A program made the position numbers and the translations under genes. Under the pieces are notes generated by a model. It saw only the letters and a program-made list of their open reading frames with translations, was not told the origin of the DNA and did no database searches. Shown piece after piece: positions 21,618 to 24,058 of a stretch of DNA of 50,509 nt; positions within the stretch are counted from its first letter, which is position 1; each line of letters begins with the position of its first letter. Source of the DNA: Methanobrevibacter sp. (lineage in GTDB: Archaea > Methanobacteriota > Methanobacteria > Methanobacteriales > Methanobacteriaceae). The stretch lies in assembly GCA_022775905.1 (NCBI GenBank), contig JALFJX010000014.1, forward strand, positions 1 to 50,509, written 5' to 3'.

Positions 21618-21654
21618 AAAGCTAATTTCTAATTAGCTTTTTCTTATTCTATTT
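21618..21654 (+). terminator. Hairpin terminator after nadA
   Basis: AAAGCTAAT (21618-21626) pairs perfectly with ATTAGCTTT (21632-21640) around a 5-nt loop, and a T-rich tract follows. It lies between the convergent nadA and hydrolase remnant and could stop transcripts from both sides. Confidence 0.7.
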
Positions 21655-22618
21655 CATATTCATTTACAAATGAGAGTATTTTGTAAATGGAATCATTTTT
21701 GTTATTATAATCAAATTCTTCAGCTTCTGGAGTAATTACTTTTATAACCACATTATCAATTGTTCCTTCTAAAGGCAATACATCATTTTCAATATCCATA
21801 TAAAATAGATCAGATGTAGTTACAATTAAAGTGCTTGCTTTAATATTGGATAGTTTATCTACGACATCATACTCCAAGAGACACTTTGTGAGGTATTTCA
21901 AATCAAAAATATCTCTGAATAAACCTGCTTCAACAAAATCCTCAAGCATAGCATCAACTTCTTCTCTGGATGCATTAGCAAGTTGGTCTCTAGACAAATA
22001 ATTTAAAAACAGCAAACGATTGATTACCACAACCAATTGTGATAAAGAAGAATCATAAACATCAGAATAAAGGGCATCGTTAGATTCCAAAATCGCTTCT
22101 ATAGATTTAAAAAATACATAATTCCTTCCAGACAATTTAGACATATTATTCAAAGACACAATATGTTCCATGTAATCAGGATATTCAGCAGCCCATGTAA
22201 ATACTTCACAGCCTCCAATACCTTCACCAATTATTGCCAAAACATTATCTATGTCAAATTTCTCTTTCAAGAATTGTTTTTTAAAGTTGACAGAATCCCT
22301 AAAAGTTTATACTGGGGATTTATATTTTAAACCTGTTGTGGATGGTGAACAGGATTCAGGTGAACCTAATGCAAGAATCCTTATAAAAAAGTATTTATTA
22401 TTACGAATAAACTCAAATTCCTCACCCTCATGAAGAATTTCCTTTGTTAAATTATTATGAAGATTAAGTAAAGCAGAGCGTTCTCCTTTAAGAGTAGAAC
22501 AAAATACAATTGCATTAATCATATTTCCATCTTCATCATATTTTGGAATCCCCATTGTACTATATTCAACATTTACATCCTCAAGAACTGCACCGGATTC
22601 AAATTCAAAAGAAGACAT
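21644..22618 (-). pseudogene. MetX-like alpha/beta hydrolase copy, interrupted by TAA and lacking catalytic residues
   Basis: Reading through a single in-frame TAA (22307-22309) gives a protein of about 324 residues that aligns along its length with the intact hydrolase encoded just upstream (22982-23932). The TAA falls where the intact copy has Tyr in FPKYSIND. The two halves are in the same frame, so this is a nonsense change, not a shift. The copy has also lost the nucleophile: GNSMGG in the intact protein reads GEGIGG here, and no His matches the LGHLCF site. It therefore could not act as a homoserine O-acetyltransferase-type enzyme even before the stop. ATG 22618 (MSSFEFESG) is the likely original start; the frame remains open a little upstream. 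Confidence 0.75.
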
Positions 22619-22713
22619 GGCATGATTACCAAATTCAACATTCAATTCTCGAATAATAATAACACATCCCTTATTTAATTAATATAATACAAATAATTTA
22701 GAATATAAATAGT

Positions 22714-22992
22714 TTATACCATATCCTCTAAAAAACTAGACAAAAATACAAACATTTCTATTTCTTCCCTTACAATGAAATCATCAAGCCTAAACTGTGC
22801 AACATCACTTTGAAAAGGATATAATTTTTCATCAAAATACATTTTAATTATTAAAATATTTTCATTGATTACTATATTTTCAGACAAATTGTTCATAAGA
22901 TAATCCATTTGTGCAGGTAACAATCCAGACACACTATACTCAACGAATTTGCGATTATTTTCATCACCATAATTTGAAATCTTAACAATCAT
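22714..22992 (-). CDS. Hypothetical small acidic protein
   Basis: 92 residues that I do not recognise. Soluble, with an LPAQMDYLMNNLSENIVINENILIIKMYF stretch suggesting a helix followed by strands; no cysteines and no known motif. Its ATG overlaps the last codons of the intact hydrolase gene by 11 bp, so translation is probably coupled and the two proteins may work together. The decayed second hydrolase copy follows downstream on the same strand. Confidence 0.6.
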   Translation of the reverse strand: MIVKISNYGDENNRKFVEYSVSGLLPAQMDYLMNNLSENIVINENILIIKMYFDEKLYPFQSDVAQFRLDDFIVREEIEMFVFLSSFLEDMV

Positions 22993-23932
22993 TAAATTCC
23001 CCCATAAACTCTTTTAATTCATTTGAAATTGTATCTAATTCATTGAAACACAAATGCCCCAAGTCAGAATCCATAATTATTAATTGAGAACCATCAATCA
23101 TTTGAGACATTGGAATAGCATCTAATTCTGGAGGAAAATGTGGATCTTGCTTGCATGCAATTATCAATGTCTTTGATTTGATTTTATCCAATTCATTTTC
23201 AACATCAAAATACATGCATGCTTCATTGCAGTACTTCAAATCATAGATATCTGTTTCTATGCTTTCATTGCCGAAGTTTTCAAATTCAGAATGCAATTCT
23301 GCTTTAGACATATTCCTTAAAGCTTCTTTAGACAATCCAAAATTAAATTCCGCCAAACTAGCTATCCTCAATGTTCTATTTAAAGAATAAGTTAATTCAC
23401 CACGATTATAATCAGGGTCAGATTCTATTATTTCATTTACAAAGTGAGATAGAATGAAATCATGACCTGCAACTTTATAACTGCTAACACCACAAATGAT
23501 AAAATCAGCATAATCCTGGAAGTTAATTGCTGAAGTAAGAGCAACAAAACCCCCCATAGAGTTACCAATCATGCCTAAAACATGATTAATGCTGAATTTT
23601 TGTGCCAGGAATTCCTTTTGAAAGTTCACAACATCATTAATTGAATATTTTGGAAACCTGTTTTTTAAATCAGTAGTTGATGGTGAACAGGATCCAGGAG
23701 AACCAAGAGCTGAAATACAAATGAAGAAATATTTATTTTCATCAAAAGCATCATTTTCACCAAGTAATGGTGCAAGTTTTTTTACTGAAGAATAGCTGCC
23801 CAAAGAACCGTGACAGTACACTACAGCATTTTTTATAAAGCCATTTTCATCATAGACAGGAGTTCCAAAAGTCATGTATTCCACAGTTACATCAGTCAAT
23901 ACATCACCATTTTCAAATTCAAATGAATCCAT
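22982..23932 (-). CDS. Alpha/beta hydrolase, homoserine O-acetyltransferase (MetX)-like
   Basis: 316 residues from ATG 23932 (an in-frame GTG lies one codon upstream). The catalytic triad is visible: Ser125 in GNSMGG, Asp263 in ACKQDPHFPPE and His293 in LGHLCF. The N-terminal FENGDVLTDVTVEYMTFGTP and the SALGSPGSCSPSTT segment fit the MetX family, but the protein is shorter than true MetX (about 370-490 residues) and lacks part of the lid, so acetyl transfer to homoserine is uncertain. The frame stays open upstream of the ATG and a GGAGG lies near 23986, so the true start may be further up with a non-standard codon. It is the first gene of a minus-strand cluster with a 92-residue orphan and a decayed paralogue. 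Confidence 0.78.
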   Translation of the reverse strand: MDSFEFENGDVLTDVTVEYMTFGTPVYDENGFIKNAVVYCHGSLGSYSSVKKLAPLLGENDAFDENKYFFICISALGSPGSCSPSTTDLKNRFPKYSINDVVNFQKEFLAQKFSINHVLGMIGNSMGGFVALTSAINFQDYADFIICGVSSYKVAGHDFILSHFVNEIIESDPDYNRGELTYSLNRTLRIASLAEFNFGLSKEALRNMSKAELHSEFENFGNESIETDIYDLKYCNEACMYFDVENELDKIKSKTLIIACKQDPHFPPELDAIPMSQMIDGSQLIIMDSDLGHLCFNELDTISNELKEFMGEFNDC

Positions 23933-24058
23933 CACAAAGTATTCATTTTTTGATATAAAATAATCATCATCGTAAATTAAAATTCCTCCATCCCAAATTG
24001 AATTAAATTATTCTTTAAAAAACAAATTATTTAAATTAAACTAAACAATGTTATTGTA

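Follow-up and report, generated by a model that had tools for sequence, protein, structure and literature searches.

A putative pseudohydrolase family beside the DUF5750-linked MetX-like hydrolase of Methanobrevibacter, and its interrupted copy in one genome

Three adjoining genes on the minus strand

We analyzed a stretch of 50,509 nucleotides (referred to as the window) from a Methanobrevibacter sp. assembly (GCA_022775905.1, contig JALFJX010000014.1, positions 1 to 50,509). Three genes lie in a row on its minus strand (Table 1), namely, a MetX-like hydrolase gene (A), a member of the DUF5750 family, which was absent from the first-pass annotation of this DNA, and a diverged copy of the hydrolase gene (B). 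The protein encoded by A passed the cut-off of the Pfam family Abhydrolase_1 (46.9 bits versus 25.8) and contains the motif IGNSMGG as well as Ser126, Asp264, and His294, numbered from the GTG start; the numbers 125, 263, and 293 given previously start at an ATG 3 bases after the GTG. By its sequence, A fits the alpha/beta hydrolases of the MetX-like superfamily with a Ser-Asp-His triad. Its AlphaFold2 model had a pLDDT of 87.8. In Foldseek searches with the models of A and of the B protein of locus L035, the best matches included acetylester hydrolases, MetX, and deacetylcephalosporin C acetyltransferase. In two genomes of the genus, G130 and G135 (loci L076 and L112), A is split into two frames.

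Gene B of the window is a single frame from an ATG at 22618 to a stop codon at 21644-21646, with one internal TAA. B could be aligned with A over most of its length: BLASTP aligned A with the N-terminal piece of B at E=3e-28 (52% identity over 102) and with its C-terminal piece at E=1e-22 (28% identity over 173), so that the previous description of a diverged copy adjoining an intact MetX-like enzyme rests on alignments far beyond chance. With 18.1 bits, the C-terminal piece alone stayed below the Pfam cut-off of 25.8; no Pfam match was obtained for the N-terminal piece. The replacement of GNSMGG by GEGIGG and the loss of the catalytic His site, both noted before, were found again in the window sequence, and the TAA is indeed the sole stop within the frame and occupies the position of a Tyr codon in the nearest relative, G030.

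Table 1. Features of the A-DUF5750-B locus in the window
Feature	Position	Strand	Remark
Shine-Dalgarno GGAGG	23985..23989	-	7 bases upstream of the ATT codon of A
AUU (ATT) putative start codon of A	23975-23977	-	conserved column in the genus
Gene A	22985-23935 from GTG (317 codons); 22985..23977 from AUU (331 codons)	-	MetX-like alpha/beta hydrolase
Gene A stop codon	22982-22984	-	
DUF5750 gene	22714-22992	-	Pfam PF19024, E=1.2e-30; ATG overlaps the 3' end of A
Gene B	21644..22618	-	putative non-catalytic MetX-like paralogue, one in-frame stop
In-frame TAA in B	22307-22309	-	Tyr codon in the nearest relative, G030
Nucleophile elbow GEGIGG of B	22211-22228	-	Gly at the serine position

Homoserine O-acetyltransferases of the MetX type and MetX-like esterases (PDB 2vat, 5d6o, 5e4y, and 5jkf) resemble A and B in fold and lid architecture; the Ser-Asp-His triad is common to MetX and A, whereas B lacks it. 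Nevertheless, A is probably not the MetX of this genome, as judged by sequence profiles. It scored 107.5 bits with NCBIfam TIGR01392 (cut-off of 500) and 90.9 bits with PRK00175 (cut-off of 331), and it reads GHLCF, without the GHD(G/A)FL motif that a study on MetX places next to the catalytic His (PMC6937278). A better candidate is encoded at L003, with 530.2 bits for PRK00175 (cut-off of 331) and 477.9 bits for TIGR01392, slightly below the cut-off of 500. This candidate (L003:1438-2901) has a CBS-like C-terminal part.

In A genes throughout the genus, the usual first canonical start is preceded by a conserved N-terminal peptide. In the 64 genes compared, which include the split A of G130 (its row taken from the wrong frame) and of G135, the first codon of this peptide was ATT in 50, ATG in 6, GTG in 1, ATC in 1, and another codon in 5 cases, and one frame was closed. 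In 40 of the 64 genes, a G-rich motif resembling a Shine-Dalgarno sequence ends 7 bases before this codon, and in nine more the distance is 8 bases. A stop codon directly precedes the first codon in 14 genes, 13 of which have ATT there (G133 has ATG), and in G004, G054, G092, G097, G105, G124, and G127 there is no ATG, GTG, or TTG between the upstream stop and the conserved core. One of these codons exists in the remaining genes, usually 15 codons downstream but in a few cases upstream, so that their translation may begin at a canonical start. Within A genes, 891 of 1,571 Ile codons are ATT, so the near-fixation of ATT is not due to codon usage alone, although shared descent has to be taken into account. 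An AUU start of A seems to be the best reading of these sequences. Judged by title and abstract, literature searches for AUU start codons in archaea and for noncanonical start codons in methanogens retrieved nothing relevant. In bacteria, the level of infC is set at initiation through an AUU start codon.

Distribution, descent, and residue loss of the B family

To compile the B repertoire, a six-frame search with the C-terminal piece of B was made in 119 genomes of the family, at least 114 of which had a match, mostly to A, and a search for DUF5750 in 67 genomes of the genus, with matches in 62. The loci obtained through both searches numbered 66 and came from 65 genomes, G126 and G128 being left out; all 17 named records carrying A are Methanobrevibacter and, so far as indicated, metagenome assemblies. 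In 46 of the 65 Methanobrevibacter-group genomes, a single locus contained A and DUF5750 together with one or more intact B genes of full length; these genomes include G130 and G135, with their split A, and G134, in which one B lacks the C-terminal part. Two B genes in tandem were observed in 9 of the 46. The previously suggested check for intact non-catalytic homologues beside MetX-like genes was thus positive, and we discarded the notion of a lone local pseudogene. In 16 of the 65 genomes, A and DUF5750 occur without a full-length B: (i) B is broken in the window and in G115; (ii) B fragments lie at contig ends in G116, G129, and G092; (iii) the contig of G078 stops about 180 bases past DUF5750; and (iv) G004, G020, G043, G054, G063, G069, G084, G109, G118, and G119 have kept A and DUF5750 and have no B. 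Downstream of the gene pair in these ten B-less genomes, the only match to a B remnant comprised 24 residues (G118, E=0.008) and was taken as chance. G111 carries A without DUF5750 and without B, and in G112 and G113 the B genes lie on contigs lacking A. The counts of full-length B omit fragments of less than 280 amino acids at A loci, namely, those at contig ends in G129, G116, G092, and G098, and the broken copy of G115.

The B gene of G115 (L059) is broken into three frames, although two of the pieces match the relative in G107 with 92-95% identity; the break may reflect a frameshift or an assembly fault. Another 18 B-type copies (L153-L170) are located elsewhere in these genomes on stretches that hold no A; one of them, L156, with 228 amino acids, was retained in the counts. 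The neighboring genes were considered as a clue to function, but no neighborhood was common to more than 5 of these 18 loci. Many of the unlinked copies read LGVGxGG, and L166, a long branch, reads LANSVGG.

No B was found at the loci fetched from other genera, where A was present; second and third matches of some genomes were left out of this set. DUF5750 was within the stretch at 10 of the 20 loci chosen for A, and A adjoined DUF5750 at 14 of the 15 loci chosen for DUF5750; these loci (L118-L152) span three families. A followed by DUF5750 is evidently an old pair of the Methanobacteriales, older than B. In some genera A is present without an adjacent DUF5750, and the DUF5750 match of G009 (L118) has an in-frame TAG. 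Our literature search found no paper naming DUF5750.

We then aligned 173 proteins, namely, 62 A sequences of the genus, 34 A sequences of other genera, and 77 B sequences, 59 of which derive from A/DUF5750 loci (including the window, two of G113, and one of G112) and 18 from the unlinked loci. The 77 B sequences formed one clade, with SH-aLRT support of 100 in two quick trees made without bootstrap. The full Ser-Asp-His triad was present in 62/62 A proteins of the genus and 34/34 of other genera, the split A of G130 and G135 being omitted, and in 0/77 B proteins. The Ser column of B contains Gly in 62, Ser in 9, and Ala, Arg, and Glu in 2 sequences each, whereas the His column contains His in only 3 of the 77, all with Gly at the Ser column; in 8 of the 77 a His lies at most 4 residues from this column. 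The catalytic Asp is retained in 31 of the 77, and the oxyanion glycine is present in 96/96 A and 7/77 B proteins. None of the nine copies with Ser has the His, so that loss of His before Ser is the simplest order. The first split of the B clade places eight of these nine copies and both Ala copies on one side, and the ninth, L166, branches at the base of the other side.

Sequence entropy in B was highest in the His loop (2.76) and at the oxyanion site (2.42); the C-terminal helix came next (2.29), ahead of the Asp loop (1.95). In contrast, residues 67-114 had an entropy of 1.10 versus 0.70 in A, and the segment LG.P.SCSPST..L...FP.Y...D.VNF is nearly as conserved as in A. Residues of its own in B are Trp135 (100%), Tyr181 (97%), and Met143 (94%). 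We considered segment 67-114 as a docking surface for DUF5750, a reading that is unsupported because A of the 10 loci without adjacent DUF5750 retains it. The AlphaFold2 model of the L035 B protein had a pLDDT of 84.9, with values below 50 at residues 46-61, beside the oxyanion loop, and 292-297, in the His loop; Foldseek matched it to 2vat with an E value of 1.8e-19. According to this model, the B family keeps the alpha/beta hydrolase fold.

The dN/dS check that had been proposed was carried out on the twelve closest B pairs. In eight of them, for which t was about 2 at most, omega was 0.09-0.20, and omega=1 was rejected (2dlnL of 47-111); the other four, with larger t, had omega values of 0.035-0.096. 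For the twelve closest A pairs, omega was 0.01-0.08. Constraint is thus seen in the less saturated pairs, and intact B is under purifying selection. With its catalytic residues lost and its coding sequence under selection, the B family fits the description of a pseudoenzyme. Since B is one clade, has the triad in none of its 77 members, and shows low omega values, catalysis would have been lost long before the stop codon arose, in agreement with the order of events proposed originally.

The interrupted copy in the window

Window B is the sister of G030 B (support of 100). Among the A genes, those of G004, G030, and the window group most closely (support of 97-99), with that of G069 next (86). 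In G004, G069, G054, and G111, A is placed inside the B-bearing clade, yet there is no B; in the first three genomes, the next gene, which we take to be NadA-like, follows DUF5750 within about 60 bases, with no remnant of B. Given the single origin of B, these absences are losses, and close relatives of the window species have lost B cleanly.

The B genes of the window and G030 aligned over 972 bases without a gap and with 255 differences (77, 48, and 130 by codon position). Omega was 0.053 for the pair (2dlnL of 166), with saturated synonymous sites, and the branch values were 0.053 for the window and 0.052 for G030, dS being saturated as well. The window branch of the B tree is longer than that of G030 (0.45 versus 0.21), while their A branches are about equal, and the relative-rate chi-square exceeded 3.84 with only 2 of 8 outgroups. 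When between 1/4 and 2/3 of the 255 differences were simulated as random substitutions, a mean of 3.1 to 7.7 stops resulted, and one or no stop was obtained in 16.5% to 0.5% of the runs. Selection, the alignment free of indels, and the simulated stop counts therefore point to a late stop. Apart from the TAA, window B shows little sign of decay at the sequence level, and its branch may or may not include a short spell of relaxation. Its frame is interrupted, as in a pseudogene. The earlier statement that the copy has decayed goes too far: the window copy is broken, but by one stop and with no indel, and decay does not extend to the B family as a whole.

Two other readings of this copy have to be weighed. 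It is rather unlikely that the TAA stems from faulty sequencing or assembly and that B is intact in the window species: the TAA is one base from a Tyr codon, the frame has no other lesion, and the branch is still constrained, but the assembly consists of 37 contigs and is rated 99.98% complete, and the absence of B from close relatives indicates that B is dispensable in this clade. Far less probable is that B is a plain pseudogene that has drifted since its catalytic residues were lost. The stop in the window copy, the broken B of G115, the missing B in G004, G069, G054, and G111, and the window branch of twice the length of that of G030 would be compatible with drift. However, there are dozens of intact frames, omega is 0.035-0.20 in the twelve closest B pairs, some residues are fixed in B but not in A, and the 255 differences from G030 include no indel and are accompanied by one stop instead of the 3 to 8 of the neutral simulation. 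The pseudogene reading is contradicted for the B family but may hold for the window copy alone, because a recent stop leaves little trace.

Proposed history and possible role of B

The account that we favor is that the monophyletic family B arose within the Methanobrevibacter group when hydrolase A, linked to DUF5750, was duplicated. In most B copies, the catalytic His and the oxyanion glycine would have disappeared first, and most lineages would then have lost Ser, to Gly and sometimes to Ala, Arg, or Glu, while selection retained the fold and the frame, as shown by sequences and models. B is dispensable in some species, and some lineages of the group copied it to other loci. A single nonsense codon would recently have interrupted the linked copy of the window species, provided that the assembly is correct at this site. 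That B is a pseudohydrolase clade that arose by duplication of A, with catalysis lost and the fold kept, is in our view very probable.

As to its role, B may be a non-catalytic protein of the pathway of A, possibly a regulatory or stabilizing subunit of A or of A-DUF5750. This partner role, which had been put forward before, is suggested by the gene order and by analogy with dead paralogues, and we propose it tentatively, at slightly less than an even chance; for the evolutionary account and the partner role jointly, the balance appears even. Searching the literature for a precedent, we found only the analogy of deoxyhypusine synthase, the fold of which is unrelated to that of A and B. There, too, a catalytic enzyme is accompanied by a retained catalytically dead paralogue; in trypanosomatids, a complex of the two and 3000-fold activation are reported (PMC3663545), whereas for A and B a corresponding contact or activation is conjectural. 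MetX enzymes dimerize via lid helices, according to the study cited above (PMC6937278). With lid limits set by analogy, the identity between A and B was 31% for the whole lid, compared with about 35% overall and 59% for residues 67-114; single lid helices ranged from 19 to 45% (19% for 183-197 and 39% for 157-172). There is thus no sign that B specially keeps the dimer face of A, and the divergence of the lid argues mildly against an A-type face in B. Two further points speak against the partner role: 18 B-type copies lie on stretches without A, and ten genomes have A and DUF5750 without B, so that A does not depend on B everywhere.

An unlikely but serious alternative is that B is a free-standing ligand-binding protein, such as a sensor or carrier, which uses the old substrate pocket independently of A. 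The conserved 67-114 segment (1.10 versus 0.70), the existence of unlinked copies, and the diverged lid are in accordance with such a function; against it, the linkage to A-DUF5750 is kept in 46 of 65 genomes, and the His and oxyanion loops are the most variable parts of B, with a variable Asp loop as well, so that the pocket itself is poorly kept. We consider it very unlikely that B has gained a different catalytic chemistry with other residues: B is constrained and has fixed residues of its own, but the nucleophile column holds Gly in 62 of 77 sequences, Ser in 9, and Ala, Arg, or Glu in 2 each, and never Cys or Asp.

Returning to the partner role, its most elaborate form, which we regard as speculative and doubtful, would be that A, DUF5750, and B constitute a heteromeric enzyme of the Methanobacteriales, with a dead hydrolase specific to the genus tuning an old hydrolase whose level is set at the AUU start. 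If this were true, nature would have knocked out the dead subunit in the window species and in its relatives. The species without B provide natural controls for the effect of B on A. To our knowledge, pseudoenzyme families with a placed origin, graded residue loss, and independent losses have been described mostly from eukaryotes, and a literature search for Methanobrevibacter with "pseudoenzyme" retrieved nothing. In the B family, intermediate states coexist in one archaeal genus: nine copies have Ser without His, Ala occurs in two, and Gly is present in 62 of 77.
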